From contig JAPPLJ010000016.1 of NCBI GenBank assembly GCA_028819475.1, positions 1 to 64,000 on the forward strand: a stretch of DNA of 64,000 bases. Direction: 5' to 3'. The position numbers and the translations under genes are program-made. Shown here piece by piece: positions 50,600 to 59,984 of the stretch (position 1 is its first letter; the number at the start of each line of letters is the position of its first letter). The DNA comes from Rhodospirillaceae bacterium (GTDB lineage: Bacteria; Pseudomonadota; Alphaproteobacteria; Bin65). A model generated the notes under the pieces. That model saw only the letters and a program-made list of their open reading frames with translations, was not told where the DNA came from and ran no database searches.

Positions 50600-51091
50600 C
50601 TAGAAGAACACCATCAGCAGCACGATGCCGGCCACACCGCCCAGAATGAAGGCGATGGCGCTGACGATGCCGGTCAGCGTCGCCCAGTCGGCGGCGCGCC
50701 AGGTCTGTCCTTCGATGTTGAACATGACCTCGGACCGGTCGCCGTCGCCGTCGACAAAGCGCTTCAGCGCGGTCTCGCTGCCATGCGCTTCCTTGATGGA
50801 AACGACGGTCACCAGAAACATCGTCAGGGCCGACGTCAGCGTGCCGATGCCGAATATCAACACGGTCGCCAGCGCGAACCAGTGGAACACGCCCTCGACC
50901 CCGCCGGTCGTGGCGCCGCTCATGAAGCCGATGATCAGCGCCGTGCCGGCGCCGTTGCCGAACAACAGGAAACGCGTCGACTCGAGCAGATTCCGGAACA
51001 TGATGTTCCGCCGCATGGAGACGACCTTGTAGCCCTCGCGGAGCCACTCCTCGGCGGTTTCCTCGCGTTCGAATTCGTCGATTTTCTTCAC
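50600..51091 (-). CDS. Conserved-looking membrane protein of the SPFH/metal operon
   Basis: The 163-residue product has a charged N-terminal helix (about 1-40) and at least three membrane segments: ALIIGFMSGATTGGVEG with VFHWFALATVLIFGIGTL, LTMFLVTVVSIKE, and the C-terminal IVSAIAFILGGVAGIVLLMVFF. I do not recognise the family. Its ATG overlaps the stop codon of the binding-protein gene as ATGA, so it belongs to the same operon as its last gene. Perhaps it anchors or senses the binding protein. Confidence 0.65.
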   Translation of the reverse strand: MKKIDEFEREETAEEWLREGYKVVSMRRNIMFRNLLESTRFLLFGNGAGTALIIGFMSGATTGGVEGVFHWFALATVLIFGIGTLTSALTMFLVTVVSIKEAHGSETALKRFVDGDGDRSEVMFNIEGQTWRAADWATLTGIVSAIAFILGGVAGIVLLMVFF

Positions 51092-52275
51092 TCGGCCGTC
51101 ACCTTGTCAGGATTGTCGTTCGAATATTCGATGAGCCGCACATAGTCGGAACCCGCATTGCTGCCGGCGGCGAAGGAAATGACCCAGTCATCGATGCCGA
51201 CGGGCTTCGTCGCCAGCGCGGACGCCAGGAATTTCTCGCGGGTCGGTTCATCCGGCATCCGTTCCAGGACCGCTATGACGAACCGGCCGACGATATAGCC
51301 TTCCAGGCTGTACGGCCCGGCGACGCGGGCGGCAGCCTCCGGGCTGGCCCGCCTGTACCGTGCAAGCGCCGACCGGAACCGCCGTACCAGTGCAATGCTC
51401 CCCTTGCGGACGTCTGGCGTTATCCTGGCGACGACCGCCGGTTCGAAGGAGCGGTCCAGCGATCTCCTGAGCAGATCGGTATTCACGATGGACAGCAGCC
51501 CCACGGCATAGGTGTCGCCGAGGGTCCGCGCCATGTTGATCGCATCCACGGCGTTCGTCGTGGTTGTCGCGAGCATGACGACGTCCAGGTCGGCCTTCTG
51601 CAGCAGAAACACGCTGCTATGAACCGAATGCGAGTGCCAGGAATAGGACGCCTTGGCCAGTATGGGCAGACCCAGGGCCTTCAGCGCTTCGTGGTAACTG
51701 TTCAGGACGGACCGGCCGAACGCATCGTCCTGATAGATGACGCCGAACCGGCGGGCGCCCAACTTGTTGAACATGTGGGAAACCAGCCGGCGCGTTTCCT
51801 CGCCATAGGAGGTCCGCAGGTTGACCACGTTCGGAAATCGCTTGCGGTCACGCAGGAAATCCGCGCCCGACACGATTCCGACGAACGGCATTTTCGCGCG
51901 GCGCAGTATCGGAGCCATGCGCCGCGCCGTCGGAGAGCCGATGCCGCCGACGATCGCGAACACGTTGTTGTCGGAGACAAACTTCATCGCATCGGCAGCG
52001 GCCTTTTCCGCCTGATACTCGTGGTCCCGCGACACCAGCTCGAGTCTCCGGCCGTTGACGCCGCCCTGCAGGTTGCGTTCGTGGAAAGCGGCAAGAATGC
52101 CGGCGCTGACCTGCAGACCGGCGTGCCCGCACGGGCCGGAGAGACAACTGCTTTGACCGAATGTAATCGAATTGGCCGTCACGCCCGGCGCCTTGGCCCC
52201 GGAGCCTCCCGAACCGCCGACTAGGAAAAGCAACACAAGCATGAACACTGAAATCGGCCTAGCGGCTACGGCCAT
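51088..52275 (-). CDS. Periplasmic branched-chain amino acid-type binding protein (PBP1)
   Basis: The 395-residue protein has a signal peptide (ISVFMLVLLFLVGGSGGSGA). It then has a type I periplasmic-binding fold as in LivK: ITFGQSSCLSGPCGHAGLQVSAGILAAFHERN, VFAIVGGIGSPTARRMAPIL, and the FGVIYQDDAFGRSVLNSYHEAL Rossmann half. It would bind a small ligand in the periplasm. No ABC permease or ATPase is present, so it may be a sensor for the SPFH complex rather than an importer. ATG 52275 is one base after the stop of the HflK-like gene. Confidence 0.8.
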   Translation of the reverse strand: MAVAARPISVFMLVLLFLVGGSGGSGAKAPGVTANSITFGQSSCLSGPCGHAGLQVSAGILAAFHERNLQGGVNGRRLELVSRDHEYQAEKAAADAMKFVSDNNVFAIVGGIGSPTARRMAPILRRAKMPFVGIVSGADFLRDRKRFPNVVNLRTSYGEETRRLVSHMFNKLGARRFGVIYQDDAFGRSVLNSYHEALKALGLPILAKASYSWHSHSVHSSVFLLQKADLDVVMLATTTTNAVDAINMARTLGDTYAVGLLSIVNTDLLRRSLDRSFEPAVVARITPDVRKGSIALVRRFRSALARYRRASPEAAARVAGPYSLEGYIVGRFVIAVLERMPDEPTREKFLASALATKPVGIDDWVISFAAGSNAGSDYVRLIEYSNDNPDKVTAE

Positions 52276-52276
52276 C

Positions 52277-53722
52277 TCATTTCTCTGACTTCGCAGTTGC
52301 GGTTTTCGCCCGCTTTTCTTTTCCCGGCTTTGCCTTCGGCGGTTTCCCCGGCTTGGCACCCGCCGTTTTTGCCGGCTTGGGCCCGGCTTTCCTTGCCCGG
52401 GCGGGTGCCTCATCGTCTTCTTCGTCGGTCCGGACGGTCGTTCGGGTCACCAGCGGCTGCTCGTTTTTCTCCGCCGATGCCGCGACGCCGGTCGATGCGA
52501 CATGGCGATGGCTGAAGATGGAGAGATCGTCGAAGATCAGAGACCGCGGCCGGGCGCTGCTCAGATGGTGGCGTTCGCTGCCCGCTGCGTGAAGGCGGCC
52601 GCTGATCAGGAAACGGTCCGCCCCGGTATTCTCGAAACCGTGGCGGCGTTTCTCGCTGGCCGTGGTCAGGGAACGGCGCCCGCCCACCAGCTGGTCTCTT
52701 ACGGTCGCAGGCCGCCCGGAAGCGCCGGCCGATGCGACCGCAGCCGGCATGCGGCCGACACCCGGCACGAATCCGTCGACCATATTGATGTCGATCGCCG
52801 AAGCATCGCCGGGATTTACCGCCGAAAGCGTCGCGTCGCGGAAAATACTGCGCATCCGCTGCCAATAGCGCGTCACCGTCACCGAAGAGGACTGCTTGCG
52901 ATAGACGGCCAGCAGATCCGAAAACATCTTGGCGCTGCTTCCCGCCTGCATCACACGCTCCTTCGCCCTGGCCCTGGCGTTCGTCACCACGGCCTCGGCC
53001 TGGCCCCTGCTGCGGGCCAGAAGCTGTTCCGTTCTCCGTCTCGCGTCGCTGACCGACTGGATGCTCTCGGCGATTGCGTCGCTGACGTCCCGGAATGCCG
53101 CGACGGTTTCCTCGATGGGCCGCAAATCGACGATATTGAGCGCCAGCAGTTCGATGCCGATATCGTTGGCCTTCAGATAGGCCGTGGTGCTCTTGAACAG
53201 GTGCGCCTGGATGACGTCGCGGTTATTGGTAAAAATCAGGTCGATATAGTTCCTGCCCATAATGTCGATCAGGCGTTCGCGCACGATCAACGTCAGGACG
53301 GTTTCCGGATCGACCGTTGCGTAGAGGTATTTTCTCAGGTCTCCGATTTTGAACTGCAGCGCCACATCGGCTTCGAAGAGGTTCGCGTCGCCCGAGAGCA
53401 TCGAAAAGGAGACACTGCCCTTTTCGCCCTGCGTCGCAACATTGCTTCGGGTTATGCGCATGACCTTGCGGACATGGGCCCGTTCGACGAACGGCAGGGC
53501 GTAGTGCAGCCCCGGCGGAACTTTCGGGACCACCACCTTGCCGAAACGGGTGAGGACCGCTTCTTCTTCTTTCTTTACGACGTAGAATCCGCTCGCCAGG
53601 AACGCCAGCACCGCGACGGCCGACAGCGACGCGAGGATGATCCTCTTCCGCGCGCCCAGAAAATCGAAAACCGCGTAGATGGCGCGTGTGCTCGGCGCCA
53701 GATCTTCGGGAATTTCCGGCAT
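52277..53722 (-). CDS. HflK-like SPFH domain protein with Lys/Pro-rich tail
   Basis: The 481-residue protein has an N-terminal membrane helix (about 28-48) and an SPFH/prohibitin domain (about 55-260) opening with EEEAVLTRFGKVVVPKVPPGLHYALPF, as in HflK. A coiled-coil segment follows (ESIQSVSDARRRTEQLLARSRGQAEAVV). From about 290 the sequence is poorly conserved and low in complexity, and the last 50 residues are Lys-, Ala- and Pro-rich (repeats of AKPGK), reminiscent of nucleic acid- or peptidoglycan-binding tails. HflK/C proteins form large membrane rings that control FtsH. It is separated from the HflC-like gene by 12 bases. Confidence 0.82.
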   Translation of the reverse strand: MPEIPEDLAPSTRAIYAVFDFLGARKRIILASLSAVAVLAFLASGFYVVKKEEEAVLTRFGKVVVPKVPPGLHYALPFVERAHVRKVMRITRSNVATQGEKGSVSFSMLSGDANLFEADVALQFKIGDLRKYLYATVDPETVLTLIVRERLIDIMGRNYIDLIFTNNRDVIQAHLFKSTTAYLKANDIGIELLALNIVDLRPIEETVAAFRDVSDAIAESIQSVSDARRRTEQLLARSRGQAEAVVTNARARAKERVMQAGSSAKMFSDLLAVYRKQSSSVTVTRYWQRMRSIFRDATLSAVNPGDASAIDINMVDGFVPGVGRMPAAVASAGASGRPATVRDQLVGGRRSLTTASEKRRHGFENTGADRFLISGRLHAAGSERHHLSSARPRSLIFDDLSIFSHRHVASTGVAASAEKNEQPLVTRTTVRTDEEDDEAPARARKAGPKPAKTAGAKPGKPPKAKPGKEKRAKTATAKSEK

Positions 53723-53734
53723 GGCTTCGGCCCG

Positions 53735-54655
53735 CTATTCCTGCGCCTGGCCCGGCGGCTGGCCCGGCGACGGAACTGTCCTGCCGTCGAGATATTTGAA
53801 CAGCTCGTTGTCGGCGGGCAGGATCAGGGTTGTGTTCTTGTCGATGATCGAATCGTAGCTGTCGAGCGCCCGGATGAACTTGTAGAAGGCCGGATCCTTG
53901 CGGTAGGCCGCGGACAGCGTTTTCAGGGCATCGGCCTCGGCGCGGCCGAGGATGGCGGTCGCTTCGGCATGGGCCGCCGCCATGATCTTCTGATGTTCGT
54001 TGATCGCGAACGCCTCGATACCGATGGCCCGTTCCTCGCCTTCGCTGCGGTAGCGCGCGGCGATGCGGGCGCGTTCGGAAATCATCCGCTTGATGACGCT
54101 GGGGCGGTTTTCCGCCGGCAGGGTGTATTCGACCAGTCCGGCGCGCAGCACGTCGATGCCGTAATCCGATGCGGCGACGGATTTGATCTGATCGAGAATT
54201 TCCCCGGCGATCTTGGCCATGTCCTCATGCGCCAGGCCGAGGCTGACGAATGCGTCCCGCGACTTGTTGCTGACGACGATGCCGACGCTCGACCTGTACA
54301 GGTCGCTCAGCCGCTTCACGGCATTGGTTTCGGTCCGGATGGCCTCGACGAAGCGAACGGGATTGGAGACGCGCCACAACAGATAGCCGTCCACCAGGAC
54401 GTTCTTCTGATCTTCGGTGATGAACTCCTGCTTGAGGCCCGTCAACGGGCGCACGCGCCGGTCGATCTTGTAGACCATCGAAATCGGCGTCGGCAGCTTG
54501 AAGTGGAGGCCCGGACCTTTGACCGGCGGAACGATCCTGCCGAAATTGGTCAGGACGCCCTGCTCCGATTCGTCGATCACATAGTGTATGTCCCAGGCGA
54601 TGACGCCCGCGAACAGGACCGCGGCAGCGGCGGCGATGGTCTTGCGCCTGCTCAT
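53735..54655 (-). CDS. HflC-like SPFH domain protein
   Basis: The 306-residue protein has a short N-terminal membrane helix (TIAAAAAVLFAGVIAWDIHYV) and an SPFH domain beginning DESEQGVLTNFGRIVPPVKGPGLHFKLP, the HflC pattern. The stretch RMISERARIAARYRSEGEERAIGI and the HAEATAILGRAEADALKTLS helix are typical of HflC. In E. coli HflC pairs with HflK and FtsH; no ftsH is nearby. The start overlaps the end of the permease-SPFH fusion gene as ATGA, so translation is coupled. Three SPFH domains are thus encoded in a row. Confidence 0.87.
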   Translation of the reverse strand: MSRRKTIAAAAAVLFAGVIAWDIHYVIDESEQGVLTNFGRIVPPVKGPGLHFKLPTPISMVYKIDRRVRPLTGLKQEFITEDQKNVLVDGYLLWRVSNPVRFVEAIRTETNAVKRLSDLYRSSVGIVVSNKSRDAFVSLGLAHEDMAKIAGEILDQIKSVAASDYGIDVLRAGLVEYTLPAENRPSVIKRMISERARIAARYRSEGEERAIGIEAFAINEHQKIMAAAHAEATAILGRAEADALKTLSAAYRKDPAFYKFIRALDSYDSIIDKNTTLILPADNELFKYLDGRTVPSPGQPPGQAQE

Positions 54656-57009
54656 GGCCGGCCTCCGGTAGTCTGGGTCTTGTGTCCGGCCTTGCCTGCG
54701 TGCCCCGGACGCTTCAGGCGCCGGTGCCCCGCGCCGGCTGCGCCGTTCGAGGATTTCCACACGGCGACCTTTTTCAGCGTTTCTTCGCTGGGCACGATGA
54801 TCTTGCTCCGGCCGGCGAGCGACGTCTCCAGCTTTTCGCGCCACAACATGTAGTGGAGCACGTCGGGCGCTGTCCGGACGGCGCCGGCAACGTCGCGGAT
54901 CGCCTTGCTCTCCGCCGCCGATGTCACCGATCTCCGCGCGGCTTCGCCCTTCGCCTGCTGGACTTCGTAGACGGCGTTGCCGTGGGCCCGGGGAATCAGC
55001 GAGACGGTCAGGCGCTGGGCGTTGACGATGATGCGCTCTCGGTCGTCCTGGGAACTCGAGACCTCGCGGAACGCACTCATCGAATCGTTGACCGGGTTGA
55101 CCGACAGCAGACTGACCTTCACCAGTTCGATGGCGTCGAGCATGGCGCTGTCCCCGCCGGCCATCAGGTTCTTGAACACCCGCTCGATATGGGATTGCAA
55201 TTGCGCCCGCTCGACGTTGAGCAGCGTGTCGAGCGTCCGCCCGGCCACGAACTTGCGCAATTCCTTGCGAACATTGTCGCCGATCACCTGCTCCGGATTC
55301 GCGACCCGATAGTAGTAGGTGTAGGGGTCCTTGACCCGATACTGCACGTTCAGCGACATCGACATGAGGTTGACGTCGCCGGTGAGATATTCGTTCGCCG
55401 TGCCGCTGGTGACGGACTTCACCACCCGCACCGGCCAGCGGTCCGCCTGCGCAAAGGGCCAGGGCGCGAGATAGTGGAGGCCGGGCGGCAGGTCGCGCCA
55501 CACGACCGCGCCGAACAGCCGCCCGTAGCCGACCTCGCCGTGCCGCACGACCATGAGGCCGCTCGCCAGGAAGGCGACGGCCAGCGCGGCCAGGATGCCG
55601 GCGCCGGCCGGCGTGCGCGGGCGGAACAGGCCCCTGACGGGCTCGTTGCCCGTGAGCCGGGCCCACCAGCCCGCCAGCGGCGTCGTGACCGGGCGCAGGT
55701 TGGAAAACAGGTCCTGATAGCCGGTCTTGAACGCGCCGGCCCGGAAGCGCCAGAGCATGAGGGCGAAGAGGCCGAGCGCGCCGGCCCATTGCAGGGTCAG
55801 GAGCGCCGGCGAATCGGACGCGTCGAGATTCACCGCAAGCGACAGGCCGAAGGCGATCATCAGGAGGTCGACGGCGATACCCAACGCCAGCGTTACGGCG
55901 ATCACGGAACCGACATAGACCGAGGCGAAACGCGCGCCGAACTGGCTCGCGACGATGGCGATGGTGCCGGTATTGGTCGCCGGGCCGGTCATCAGGAAGA
56001 TGAGCGCAGCGCCCGGGCTGAATCCCTTGGCCACCAGGGCTGCGGCGATCGGGGTGCTGGCCGAGGCGCAGATGTACAGCGGGATCCCGACGAGGACCAT
56101 GACCGGATAGGAGAGCCAGCGGGCGTATTCGTAGGCCATGAGGTCGCTGGGAATGGCGAGGTAGATGACGCCGCCCAGCAGCACGCCGACGAGCAGGGCG
56201 AAGAGAATGTCGTCCGCGACCTCGATGAAGCCGTAGCGCAGAATGTGTCTGCAGACGGTGCTGAAGGAGAGGCCGCTGAGATCGCGCCCGCCGACCGTCG
56301 GCGGCTCGGTGCGCACTTCGGGAAGCGACAGGAACTCCCGGTAGAATTCGGGCTTGATCCAGGTCATGGACCGGGCGCGCCCGACGCCCTGGTTCAACCG
56401 CGCCAGCCAGGTCACGAAGAAGGCCTTGAAGGCGGCCGGGCTGATGTAGCAGTCGTCGTCGCCCGGGATCAGCGTCTTGTGGCTGTGATCGTGCCCGTCA
56501 TGGTCGTGGGAATGATCGTGGTCGTGGCCGAGGTGGTCGTGATCGTGATGGTCGTGATCGTGGCTGTCGCCGGCCGCCGGCTCGTCGGCGTCGGCGCCGC
56601 GGATCATCCCGATGCAGAAGATGCCCGCTACGACGCCGGTAATGAAGCTGATGAACGGCCGGACCACCGCAGCCACGGGGCCGAAGAACGCGTTGGTGAC
56701 GAGGATCGAATCCGCGCCCGTCTCCGGCGCGGTGATCAGGAACGACATGCAGGACGAACGCGAGGCCCCCTTGCGCCGCATTTCGGCGACGACCGGGACC
56801 ACGGAACAGCTGCAGAGCGGCATCGGCACGCCGATGGCGGCGCTGGACGCGACGGATTTCAGGCTGTCATGGCGCAGCCATTTCAGGACCGCGTCCCGCG
56901 AAATGAAGACGTGAATCAGCCCTGCCAGGAACAGGCCGAGCAGAAGCATCGGCCCGAGCAGCAGAAAAGAAGACCAGAGAAAATCAAGAAAAAGGATTAA
57001 GTTTTCCAC
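54652..57009 (-). CDS. Metal permease (SO_0444/ArsP-like) fused to an HflK-like SPFH domain
   Basis: The 785-residue product starts at GTG 57009, or GTG 57012, with AGGAAAG just upstream. Residues 1-395 form a permease of the SO_0444-type Cu/Zn efflux family, with the signature MPLCSCSVVPVV at 63-74, EMRRKGASRSSCMSFLITAPETGADSI, and GPATNTGTI. A cytoplasmic or periplasmic loop at about 149-177 has 14 histidines in 29 residues (HDHDHHDHD type), a zinc or copper chelator. After a linker and a new membrane helix (470-488) comes an SPFH domain (about 490-735) beginning VRHGEVGYGRLFGAVVW, then a basic tail. It is the first gene of a five-gene operon. I know of no described protein with this fusion. 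Confidence 0.87.
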   Translation of the reverse strand: MENLILFLDFLWSSFLLLGPMLLLGLFLAGLIHVFISRDAVLKWLRHDSLKSVASSAAIGVPMPLCSCSVVPVVAEMRRKGASRSSCMSFLITAPETGADSILVTNAFFGPVAAVVRPFISFITGVVAGIFCIGMIRGADADEPAAGDSHDHDHHDHDHLGHDHDHSHDHDGHDHSHKTLIPGDDDCYISPAAFKAFFVTWLARLNQGVGRARSMTWIKPEFYREFLSLPEVRTEPPTVGGRDLSGLSFSTVCRHILRYGFIEVADDILFALLVGVLLGGVIYLAIPSDLMAYEYARWLSYPVMVLVGIPLYICASASTPIAAALVAKGFSPGAALIFLMTGPATNTGTIAIVASQFGARFASVYVGSVIAVTLALGIAVDLLMIAFGLSLAVNLDASDSPALLTLQWAGALGLFALMLWRFRAGAFKTGYQDLFSNLRPVTTPLAGWWARLTGNEPVRGLFRPRTPAGAGILAALAVAFLASGLMVVRHGEVGYGRLFGAVVWRDLPPGLHYLAPWPFAQADRWPVRVVKSVTSGTANEYLTGDVNLMSMSLNVQYRVKDPYTYYYRVANPEQVIGDNVRKELRKFVAGRTLDTLLNVERAQLQSHIERVFKNLMAGGDSAMLDAIELVKVSLLSVNPVNDSMSAFREVSSSQDDRERIIVNAQRLTVSLIPRAHGNAVYEVQQAKGEAARRSVTSAAESKAIRDVAGAVRTAPDVLHYMLWREKLETSLAGRSKIIVPSEETLKKVAVWKSSNGAAGAGHRRLKRPGHAGKAGHKTQTTGGRP

Positions 57010-57797
57010 CACGCTTTCCTGCGCAGTTTGCGCCCGAAAAAATGCACTATGTCGCGACAACGGGAGCGATGTCAACAATTGCCGCGCGAGGACAATTTCC
57101 GTTCTCGAAAACCGAAAAAAATTCCATTAGTTGCAGACAATAGATCGCCGGGTTGCAGAAAGTTTTTGCACTTCAGAACAGAAATTGCGTTATAATATAA
57201 AATATTAATTCTGAAAATAGGATAGTGAAGGACATTTGCGGCAGTCGGCGCGCTTGTCCGAACCGGCAGGCCGGGAGGCCCGTTCGACCGTTTCCCGCGG
57301 CCAATCTTCCGACCGCACCGCGGCTATCCGCAATCCGCCGGCGAAGGCTGCTTCCGCGCACTGCGTTCGGCATTTCTGCGCCGCCCGGCGTTTCCCGGTT
57401 GCCGACACCGATACGGCATCCTGCATTCCGCCCGGCCGCGTCCGCATGAGACCCGGCGAAGCCGCAGAGTTCCGATCTGCGTGTTTCGATCTGCATGATG
57501 CGCGCGGAAGATTCAGGGCTGCATGCAGACAAAAGTTATGTTATCTTGTAATGAAACAATTTTCGTGTTCGGCATTTTTCATTATCGGGAAACAATGATA
57601 TTGGCTTGCACAGGGAGCCACCCCTCGAATCCGGAATATTCCGGTGTACGGGCGCCGACTAGGTCCGCCTTACGGCGGGAATGGTGGAGCATTCGGCCCC
57701 GGTCCTGCCGGTCGGAGTGACTTGCGAACCGGCAGAAGTTCTGATCGAAACCGGCCGGGACCGATGCGAGTCGTCCGGCCGAACGGCACGGGCAGCC
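57010..57797. other. Divergent control region between the SPFH/metal operon and znuA-like gene
   Basis: A 788-base gap without a convincing gene. 57010-57230 is strongly AT-rich and holds the likely promoters. A palindrome centred at 57195 is annotated separately. From 57240 to 57520 the sequence is GC-rich; open frames there have no protein-like composition. A second A/T-rich patch at 57530-57610 (GTTATGTTATCTTGTAATG) may hold the znuA promoter. TTGCAC (57166-57171) and TATAAT (57191-57196) could form a plus-strand promoter but with a long 19-base spacer. Confidence 0.5.
57189..57200. promoter_or_regulatory. Zur-like palindrome
   Basis: GTTATAATATAA contains the 11-base palindrome TTATA-A-TATAA, which fits the GTTATA-N-TATAAC core described for Zur sites in proteobacteria. 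The outer bases do not match well. It lies between two divergent units with metal-related genes, but could equally be just a -10 element. Confidence 0.35.
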
Positions 57798-58736
57798 ATG
57801 AAATATCTACTCCTTCTCGCCGCCTTTTTTTCTCTGGCGACCCTGCATGCGCCGCAGGCGCGCGCCGTCGAAGTCGTCGTCAGCATCAAGCCGGTCCATT
57901 CCCTCGTCGCCGCTGTGATGGGCAAGACCGGCAAGCCGCGCCTGCTGCTGGGCGGCGACGTGTCCCCGCACACATACCCGTTGCGCCCGTCCGAGGCCCG
58001 GGCGCTGACCGGGGCCGGTCTCGTCGTCTGGATCGGCAGGAATTTCGAGAAATTCCTCGATCGCCCGATCGCCGGTCTCGGCTCCGGCGCGAGAGTCCAG
58101 ACCTTGCGCGACGCGGCGGGGATGCGGTTGCTGCCGGCCCGCGGCGGCGGCATATGGGAGGCCGGCCGGAGCCGGGTTCATGTCGACGAGACCGAGGAAC
58201 CCGGCCACGATCACAGCGGGTTCGACATGCATATCTGGCTCGATCCCGCCAACGCCCGCCGCATCGTCGAGGTCGTCGCCGAATCGCTCGTCCGCATCGA
58301 TCCCGGCCGCACCGACACCTATCGAAAGAATGCCGCGGCCACGCGAAAGCGGATCGCCGCGCTCGAGGAATCGTTGCGAGCGCGGCTGGAGCCGGTCCGG
58401 CGGCGTGCGTTCATCGTATTCCACGATGCCTTCCAGTATTTCGAGTTCGCGTTCGGCCTCAACAGCAAGGGCGCCATCGCCGTCGATCCGGCACAACCGC
58501 CCGGCGCCAGACGGCTGGCGGAGCTGCGCGCCGCCCTTGCCGATTACAATATCGGTTGCGTGTTTTCCGAACCGCAGTTCGAGCCGGACCTCGTTCGGAC
58601 CGTCATCGAGGGGACGCGAATCAGGACAGGAACGCTCGATCCGCTGGGCTTCGGCGTCGAGCCGGGCCCGGACGCCTGGTTCGCGATCATGCGCCGCCTG
58701 GGCGACGCCATCGCGGAATGTCTCGGCAGGCCCTGA
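57798..58736 (+). CDS. ZnuA-like zinc ABC transporter binding protein
   Basis: The 312-residue protein has a signal peptide (MKYLLLLAAFFSLATLHAPQ, cut near ARA-VE) and the cluster A-I metal-binding fold. Expected metal ligands are His58 in SPHTYPLRPSEA, His145 in FDMHIWLDP and His209 in FHDAFQYFE. The flexible loop is short (HDH at 137-139), unlike the long His-rich loop of E. coli ZnuA. The C-terminal EPQFEP segment and a hydrophobic helix complete it. ATG 57798 begins the signal peptide. No znuB or znuC is beside it, so the partner permease must be elsewhere. Confidence 0.88.
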   Translation: MKYLLLLAAFFSLATLHAPQARAVEVVVSIKPVHSLVAAVMGKTGKPRLLLGGDVSPHTYPLRPSEARALTGAGLVVWIGRNFEKFLDRPIAGLGSGARVQTLRDAAGMRLLPARGGGIWEAGRSRVHVDETEEPGHDHSGFDMHIWLDPANARRIVEVVAESLVRIDPGRTDTYRKNAAATRKRIAALEESLRARLEPVRRRAFIVFHDAFQYFEFAFGLNSKGAIAVDPAQPPGARRLAELRAALADYNIGCVFSEPQFEPDLVRTVIEGTRIRTGTLDPLGFGVEPGPDAWFAIMRRLGDAIAECLGRP

Positions 58737-58844: not shown

Positions 58845-59984
58845 ATGGCTCCCGAGACCCGGAGATCCGGCTGGTACCGGATCCTTTCCTGGCTCGTCCT
58901 TGCGGCGGCACTCTACGCTTTGCTCGTGGCAGTCGGCGTCGTCGGCAAGGGCTTCCGCCTGGCGTTCGGCGGTGCGGAGGGGGTTGGGGCGCTGTTCGAA
59001 TTCGCGACGAACCCGTTCATCGGGCTGGTTCTCGGCATCCTTGCAACCGCCCTGATCCAGTCGTCCAGCACCGTCACGTCGATCATCGTCGGCCTCGTGG
59101 CGGGCGGCATGCCGATCGCCATGGCGATCCCCATGGTGATGGGCGCCAATGTCGGAACGACGGTGACCAACACGCTTGTCAGCTTCGGCCATATCAAGCG
59201 GCCGGCGGAGTTCAGAAAGGCGTTTGCCGCCGCCACCATTCACGACTTCTTCAATCTGCTCAGCATCGCGATTTTCCTGCCGCTGGAGCTCGCCTTCGGC
59301 CTGCTCGAAAAACTGAGCGGCGCGGTGAGCCATGTCGTCGAAAGCATCGGGACGGTCGACGCCGGCGGGAAGGGCGTCTTCAAGACCGTCATCGGCGCCG
59401 GGACGGAATTCATCGAGTCGCTGACGGCGCCGCTGCCCGACGTCTGGGCCGGTTCGGTCCTGATCGTCGGCGGAATCGCGCTGATCCTGCTGTCGATCCT
59501 GTATCTCGGCAATGCCCTGAAGACCGTATTCGTGGGCAGAGCCAGGAGAATCCTGCAGGCGGCGGTCGCCAGGGGGCCGGTGACCGGGATCTGCTCCGGC
59601 ACCCTGGTCACGGTGCTCGTGCAATCGTCGTCGACCACCACGAGCATCATCGTGCCGCTGGCGGGAAGCGGCGTGATCGGGCTGCGCCACGCCTACCCGT
59701 TCACGCTTGGCGCCAACATCGGCACGACCGTGACCGCGCTGCTCGCCGCGACGGCGATCGTCGGCCCGACCCATGCCGTCGCGCACCAGATCGCAATTGC
59801 GCATTTTCTCTACAATCTGATGGGCGTCGCCGTGATCTACAGCATCCCCTGGCTGCGCGAGATCCCGATTGCGGGCGCGGAGTGGATCGCACGGCTCGGC
59901 AGCGAACGGAAATGGGCGGCCATGGCGTACATCCTCTCGGTATTTTTCGGCATTCCGGGCGCCCTCGTGTATGTGACGGCATAG
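58845..59984 (+). CDS. Na/Pi cotransporter family protein
   Basis: The 379-residue membrane protein has the inverted-repeat fold of SLC34-type sodium/phosphate cotransporters. The QSSS motif appears twice (ALIQSSSTVTSIIVG about 70 and VLVQSSSTTTSIIV about 265), each followed by GANVGTTVTN or GANIGTTVTA. Both are the family's core substrate-binding signatures. There is no PhoU-like C-terminal domain, as seen in many bacterial members. The start at 58845 has GAGAGAAATCCCGG upstream. It lies 108 bases after the ZnuA-like gene, possibly in one transcript; a role in phosphate export or import is open. Confidence 0.9.
   Translation: MAPETRRSGWYRILSWLVLAAALYALLVAVGVVGKGFRLAFGGAEGVGALFEFATNPFIGLVLGILATALIQSSSTVTSIIVGLVAGGMPIAMAIPMVMGANVGTTVTNTLVSFGHIKRPAEFRKAFAAATIHDFFNLLSIAIFLPLELAFGLLEKLSGAVSHVVESIGTVDAGGKGVFKTVIGAGTEFIESLTAPLPDVWAGSVLIVGGIALILLSILYLGNALKTVFVGRARRILQAAVARGPVTGICSGTLVTVLVQSSSTTTSIIVPLAGSGVIGLRHAYPFTLGANIGTTVTALLAATAIVGPTHAVAHQIAIAHFLYNLMGVAVIYSIPWLREIPIAGAEWIARLGSERKWAAMAYILSVFFGIPGALVYVTA

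Follow-up and report, generated by a model that had tools for sequence, protein, structure and literature searches.

Within a 64,000-nucleotide stretch of a Rhodospirillaceae bacterium (assembly GCA_028819475.1, contig JAPPLJ010000016.1, positions 1 to 64,000; hereafter the window), we describe a gene for a metal permease fused to an HflK-like SPFH subunit, the first of a three-gene run in the order permease-HflK, HflC, HflK. Both the fusion and the gene order are conserved well beyond the source organism. The explanation that we favor, and to which we give roughly an even chance, is that the run encodes a zinc-starvation system whose permease, of the elevator type, forms an integral part of a periplasmic cage like that of HflK/C.

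A permease and an SPFH domain in one reading frame

The fusion gene is a single frame of 785 codons, free of internal stops, in which an SO_0444/ArsP_1 permease is followed by a positively charged linker, one membrane helix and an HflK-like SPFH domain. Pfam assigns residues 7–380 to ArsP_1 (PF03773, E 3.6e-42) and residues 499–657 to Band_7/SPFH (PF01145, E 3.1e-11), both over the curated cut-offs. An earlier, sequence-only reading of the window had described this uninterrupted frame, a loop with 14 histidines and the motifs MPLCSCSVVPVV and GPATNTGTI. All three hold: the 14 histidines are counted at residues 137–192, and both motifs are found in the protein. The number of histidines in the loop differs among congeners.

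Among NCBIfam models, the permease part scores 319.5 bits against NF033936, the SO_0444 family Cu/Zn efflux transporter (cut-off 300), and eight other fusions score 308–386 bits. The SPFH part reaches 119 bits against TIGR01933 (hflK), with a range of 119–123 across the fusions scored, and so misses the equivalog cut-off of 159.4; by this score it is HflK-like, not HflK. With HflK it shares an SPFH domain followed by a long helix and an adjoining HflC-like gene. Its best phmmer match is E. coli HflK (7vhp, E 2.8e-19), and the best Foldseek match to its predicted structure is again HflK (9cz2, E 1.4e-12).

An AlphaFold2 model of the full fusion, built from 53 sequences, has a mean predicted local distance difference test score (pLDDT) of 79.9 and a predicted template modeling score (pTM) of 0.56; the permease and SPFH parts are confident, and the His-rich loop is disordered. 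The linker ahead of the last helix carries four to nine or more Lys/Arg residues and few acidic ones in 11 of 11 fusions examined. By the positive-inside rule, so strong a positive charge would place the linker in the cytosol and the SPFH domain, like that of HflK, in the periplasm; by the same rule the His-rich loop is predicted to be cytosolic. The permease modeled alone (pLDDT 81, pTM 0.77) is built of two halves that resemble each other, with helix breaks near CSCS and GPATN.

To find the fusion elsewhere, 84,980 species genomes were scanned with an alignment of the fusion and plain SO_0444 permeases, followed by our own profile searches; the resulting counts are minima. The single-frame fusion is present in at least 16 genomes of Pseudomonadota, Acidobacteriota, Planctomycetota and Rokuibacteriota, that is, in at least 15 besides the source genome (G000), which has one copy. 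Among six congeners searched, the fusion is present in three, with whole-length identities of 97, 92 and 88%, and missing from the others. Further loci come from metagenome-assembled genomes (MAGs) labeled as alphaproteobacterial (L097 and L098, together with L096, apparently the same genome as G003), Bryobacterales (L099), Pseudomonadales (L100), Gammaproteobacteria (L104), Rokuibacteriota (L108), Acidobacteriota (L112 and L158) and Phycisphaerae (L135); such taxon labels may err, though not in every case. L107 lies on an 8.65 Mb contig of an isolate, Bradyrhizobium erythrophlei GAS478. A search of 199 Acidobacteriota genomes yielded two more fusions (G928 and G1045), and Pfam confirmed ArsP_1 and Band_7 in eight of the eight more divergent fusions checked. 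When the family of Bradyrhizobium was searched, the fusion was found in one of 111 genomes, the seed genome itself, and a search for plasmid- or phage-type carriage returned no plasmid record covering 80% of the fusion. Close permeases that are unfused (L101, L103, L105 and L106; 53–64% identity) have no SPFH neighbors. The permease motifs are invariant in fusions and unfused relatives.

Among G000, G001, G003 and G004, the ratio of nonsynonymous to synonymous substitution rates (dN/dS) is below 1 in every part of the fusion: about 0.27–0.43 in the linker, 0.06–0.13 in the coiled coil and, lowest of all, 0.02–0.06 in the permease core. The whole gene, linker included, is under purifying selection within the genus. 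Since the same frame occurs in at least 16 genomes and selection runs through the linker, the fusion is no assembly error, and the possibility raised with the sequence-only reading, a lost stop codon in a fusion absent from relatives, is ruled out.

Zinc-uptake neighbors and candidate Zur boxes

The sequence-only reading stopped at the fusion and overlooked two further SPFH genes beside it, as well as zinc-uptake neighbors, a Zur-type box and, in another genome, a second fusion with a different transporter family. One of these genes is for an HflC-like protein, the other for a second HflK-like protein (Table 1). The second HflK-like proteins score 138–140 bits against TIGR01933 (cut-off as above). 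An HflC-like and then an HflK-like gene lie downstream of the fusion at each locus; in L135, L247 and L248 the contig or locus ends within the third gene. Canonical hflK and hflC genes are retained elsewhere in the source genome (C36:104172 and C36:105229), and an hflK over the TIGR01933 cut-off is likewise found in 14 of 15 genomes searched; the SPFH triplet is thus an addition.

In a maximum-likelihood tree of 56 SPFH sequences, the fused HflK part, the HflC-like protein and the second HflK-like protein have an identical branching order in clade I (L104, then L100, L099 and L098, then the window with L097), which indicates that the three genes moved together as a unit. The triplet HflC proteins, including that of the second fusion in Aquibium oceanicum described below, separate from canonical HflC with weak support (89/62). 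Further triplets were sought among the genomes that best match a triplet-HflC profile, and all 19 of the 19 loci opened were ordinary two-gene hflK-hflC pairs. The clade II fusions have an extra HflC-like gene upstream (L107:7734-8678 and L108:6805-7707), giving four SPFH genes per locus.

The gene after the triplet, for a Peripla_BP_6 binding protein, is a conserved downstream neighbor in the clade I loci L096–L100 and L104, and the gene that follows, for a probable membrane protein of 163 aa, is kept beside it in L096–L099. A znuA-like gene diverges from the fusion in the window. In L098 a single strand carries, in order, znuA, the fusion, HflC, HflK, the binding protein, a 162-aa protein, an ABC ATPase with a His-rich tail and an ABC-3 permease. 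ABC-3 and ABC ATPase genes also adjoin the cluster in L096 and L097, the latter with znuA as well.

The Zur box consensus GTTA-N5-TAAC is conserved in many proteobacteria (PMC4176598). Zur-type boxes precede the fusion in the window, G001, G003/L096, L097 and L104 (shuffle p at most about 0.003); that of G003/L096, TGTTATTTTATAACA, has one mismatch to the 15-mer. Across the whole source genome, four distinct sites lie within two mismatches of TGTTATAWTATAACA. One is the site upstream of the fusion; another, a perfect match, precedes an ABC ATPase gene, followed in the G003 counterpart by an ABC-3 permease gene. A third, also perfect, precedes a gene of the FmdA/AmdA formamidase family (C67:152003, L181), and the fourth lies between a Peripla_BP_6 binding-protein gene and a LysR-type gene (C54:5911, L184). 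In G003 another site within two mismatches of TGTTATAWTATAACA precedes znuA, and a gene for a Zur homolog is about 3 kb away. Three Fur-family proteins are present, the third of which is Zur-like: it scores 105.5 bits against the Zur model (below the cut-off of 167) and at most 42 bits against other Fur/PerR models, and E. coli Zur (4mtd) is among its best solved relatives. Together with the motif matches and the znu neighbors, this strongly indicates for clade I that the SPFH run belongs to zinc homeostasis as a putative Zur-controlled unit, made when zinc is short. The occurrence of Peripla_BP_6 genes both near a Zur-type box and as the fourth gene after the fusion hints at uptake of an amino-acid-like zinc ligand.

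Some further neighbors were recorded. A secreted FmdA/AmdA-family gene stands directly upstream of the clade II fusions (L107:8824-9834 in Bradyrhizobium and L108:7814-8827 in Rokuibacteriota). In L098 a Cu/Zn superoxide dismutase-like sequence, judged by eye, sits at the end of an open reading frame (L098:16004-16810) after the znuB that closes the zinc gene run. A PiT phosphate transporter and GPP34 pair lies near the cluster in three loci (L097:19557-21469, L096:7595-9597 and L098:4339-6284); a Na/Pi cotransporter takes its place in the window and in L104.

Table 1. Features of the fusion gene and its surroundings in the window (residue numbers refer to the fusion protein).
Feature	Position	Strand	Evidence or remark
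163-aa probable membrane protein	50600..51091	minus	no Pfam or NCBIfam match
Periplasmic substrate-binding protein (Peripla_BP_6)	51088..52269	minus	start codon uncertain
Second HflK-like gene (P0006)	52277..53722	minus	PF01145; TIGR01933 138.1 bits, below cut-off 159.4
HflC-like gene (P0005)	53735..54655	minus	4-base overlap with fusion stop; TIGR01932 (hflC) 155.8 bits, over cut-off 134.4
Permease-SPFH fusion gene (P0007)	57009-54652	minus	GTG start at 57009, stop at 54652; 785 aa
SO_0444/ArsP_1 permease part, residues 1-423	55741..57009	minus	PF03773, NF033936; AlphaFold2 helices 2-136, 249-423
His-rich loop, residues 137-192, 14 His	56434..56601	minus	low pLDDT; His count varies among relatives
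Positively charged linker, residues 424-466, predicted cytosolic	55612..55740	minus	charge bias, AlphaFold2 model
Membrane helix ahead of SPFH domain, residues 467-484	55558..55611	minus	charge bias, AlphaFold2 model
HflK-like SPFH domain (485-640) with long helix and C-terminal strands (641-752)	54754..55557	minus	PF01145, phmmer, Foldseek
Zur-type box CGTTATAATATAAAA (GTTA-N5-TAAA)	57188..57202		upstream of fusion; motif match to GTTA-N5-TAAC
Weaker Zur-like match TATGTTATCTTGTAATGAA	57537..57555		nearer znuA; shuffle p ~0.02
znuA-like zinc-binding protein gene	57798..58736	plus	PF01297, E 5.4e-63; divergent from fusion
Na/Pi cotransporter gene	58845..59984	plus	neighbor in L104 too

A second transporter fusion and the direction of transport

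A tblastn search of plasmids located a fusion of another kind on plasmid NZ_CP018172.1 of Aquibium oceanicum. In this 515-aa protein (WP_072608301.1), a Cation_efflux/CDF domain (PF01545, residues 8–198, E 4.5e-25) is joined to Band_7 (residues 243–414), and both TIGR01297 (CDF) and TIGR01933 (hflK) are over their cut-offs. The gene order is CDF-HflK, HflC-like, HflK-like, a peptidylprolyl isomerase and a ZntA-like P-type ATPase. As in the window, a metal transporter domain is joined to an HflK-like SPFH domain and followed by HflC-like and HflK-like genes; unlike the window, the transporter is of the Cation_efflux/CDF type, the neighbor is a ZntA-like ATPase and a search for Zur-type boxes found none. 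RefSeq labels the protein (L035:5272-6816) merely as HflK, and such fusions may therefore escape searches by name. None was found in other genomes among 385 alphaproteobacterial and 398 Pseudomonadota genomes sampled (783 in all), which suggests that the CDF-HflK form is rare. A 653-aa frame in G407 considered as a fusion of this type proved to be an ordinary HflK with a non-coding extension.

Since the two fusions are independent and involve different metal transporters, a functional connection of SPFH cages with metal transport is a better explanation than chance. We hold tentatively, at a little under even, that bacteria have repeatedly joined metal transporters of unrelated families (ArsP_1/SO_0444 and CDF) to the leading subunit of an SPFH cage with three components and so made transporters that encapsulate themselves; the zinc-starvation triplets of the PA2437-2439 type would be the unfused form. 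The parts of such a system are known, and its appearance with transporters of two families makes it plausible that a wider class exists.

For the window, our explanation runs as follows. A Zur-controlled run would be made under zinc shortage. The fused HflK part and its two partners, the HflC-like protein and the second HflK-like one, would build a periplasmic cage of the HflK/C type, which would hold the permease within or next to the patch of membrane that it encloses. From the space within the cage the permease would then import zinc or a complex of it, in cooperation with ZnuABC and the binding protein encoded alongside, and on the cytosolic side the His-rich loop would act as a zinc buffer. 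A transporter built into a membrane ring had been proposed in the sequence-only reading. What has become firmer is its basis: the fusion is real, conserved and old, and its SPFH part resembles HflK in sequence, in modeled fold and in its predicted periplasmic location. The ring itself we infer, soundly in our view, from the precedents of the stomatin dome (PMC12407830) and of HflK/C around FtsH (PMC12048511). The inward direction is the least certain step; Zur-type boxes and znu neighbors favor uptake.

Several observations weigh against this explanation. An elevator-type transporter with an inverted-repeat, re-entrant-hairpin fold is likely from the permease model, for which the top VIA-align rows are ArsB, CNT, DASS and TRAP transporters (Z 12.5 to ~8) and nearly all of the top 30 belong to this fold class, but a Z of about 12, as in the match to ArsB (10tp; Z 12.5, 285 residues, root-mean-square deviation 4.9), is close to what is quoted as noise for helical models, and Foldseek gave the same model no significant match in the PDB (best E 0.39). 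The candidate box of the window has two mismatches. Upstream of L099, L100, the clade II fusions and the Aquibium cluster, as also of L098, where znuA precedes the fusion, the search for a Zur box found nothing above chance, so that zinc control is indicated, by motif, for clade I only. Other adverse points concern direction, and they make a serious rival of the proposal that the same caged transporter exports zinc, copper or cadmium, with the cage or periplasmic space shielding or routing the metal. All nine fusions scored pass the cut-off of a family named for Cu/Zn efflux; SO_0444 itself is required for growth in excess Zn or Cu (PMC3219624), and a relative in Nitratiruptor is metal-induced (PMC10092412). 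RND/HlyD-type efflux genes adjoin L099 and L100, and the Aquibium cluster combines a CDF domain with a ZntA-like ATPase. The family name, phenotype and efflux company favor export. Set against these are the Zur-type boxes and znuABC company of clade I and a Pseudomonas aeruginosa triplet that zinc shortage induces and that has an importer as its partner (PMC4542158), and on balance we think export unlikely.

The permease might instead serve only to anchor the complex or sense zinc, the triplet being a zinc-starvation HflK/C that targets the zinc protease FtsH and redirects proteolysis when zinc is short. That the HflC-like protein passes the hflC cut-off, that HflK/C enclose FtsH and that the triplet is an addition to the canonical pair would all fit. 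We consider this quite improbable: no protease gene is present in the fusion clusters examined, and invariant permease motifs, together with the lowest dN/dS in the permease core, argue for a working transporter. There would be no caged transporter at all if the frame were artefactual or the two domains were made as, or cut into, separate proteins, and cleavage is known for SPFH proteins in some systems (PH1511, cited in PMC13086221). Given a single frame in genomes from unrelated assemblies, one of them an isolate, and a linker under purifying selection, this can be given very little credence.

Comparison with known systems

Structures of stomatin solved recently suggest that SPFH rings, beyond holding FtsH, can corral transporters. 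In a covalent fusion the identity of the cargo is beyond doubt, which makes both the encapsulation of a transporter by a ring and its effect on transport directly testable. In the searched open-licence literature we found no description of a transporter-SPFH fusion, and the claim of the sequence-only reading that no example had been described stands for the covalent form. It does not extend to non-covalent complexes, since in solved structures the stomatin SPFH dome encloses aquaporin-1 or UT-B (PMC12407830). In these, as in the complex that we propose, an SPFH dome covers a patch of membrane that contains a transport protein; unlike that complex, they are non-covalent, homo-oligomeric and human, and they carry water or urea, not metal.

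The E. coli HflK/HflC cage around FtsH (PMC12048511) agrees with the window in SPFH domain order, long helix, single N-terminal membrane helix and periplasmic SPFH domain, and HflK is the best match of the SPFH part in sequence and fold. It differs in having no transporter attached, and the window has HflK-like parts below the hflK cut-off and a second HflK-like subunit. The permease part falls within the SO_0444/ArsP_1 permeases by Pfam and NCBIfam cut-offs, whereas known members stand alone and that of the window is SPFH-fused in a zinc-starvation context.

A close parallel in gene pattern is the hmtA cluster of P. aeruginosa, which begins with PA2439 (HflK), PA2438 (HflC) and PA2437 (HflC family) and whose HmtA is a zinc importer (PMC4542158). 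In a znuA mutant these three genes are up 9.0-, 10.6- and 14.4-fold, with a weak Zur site (PMC4542158); the PA2439 promoter is bound by Zur (PMC8531726), and the PA2439-PA2437 proteins are raised in zinc depletion (PMC11761036). From gene numbering, the three-gene SPFH operon PaFlo5-6-7 (PA14_33070, 33080 and 33110; PMC13086221) would be the same locus; the assays seen in that study cover growth, virulence factors, motility, biofilm and oxidative stress, with no zinc test seen. The fusion offers a lead for these unexplained Zur-controlled HflK/HflC genes. Compared by annotation and published descriptions, PA2434-PA2439 and the window share a run of three SPFH genes. In P. aeruginosa this run is a Zur target induced by zinc depletion, and the HflK-like, HflC-like, HflK-like order of the window has the pattern of a zinc-starvation SPFH triplet; the difference is that the transporter partner in P. 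aeruginosa is a separate, unfused P-type ATPase, HmtA.

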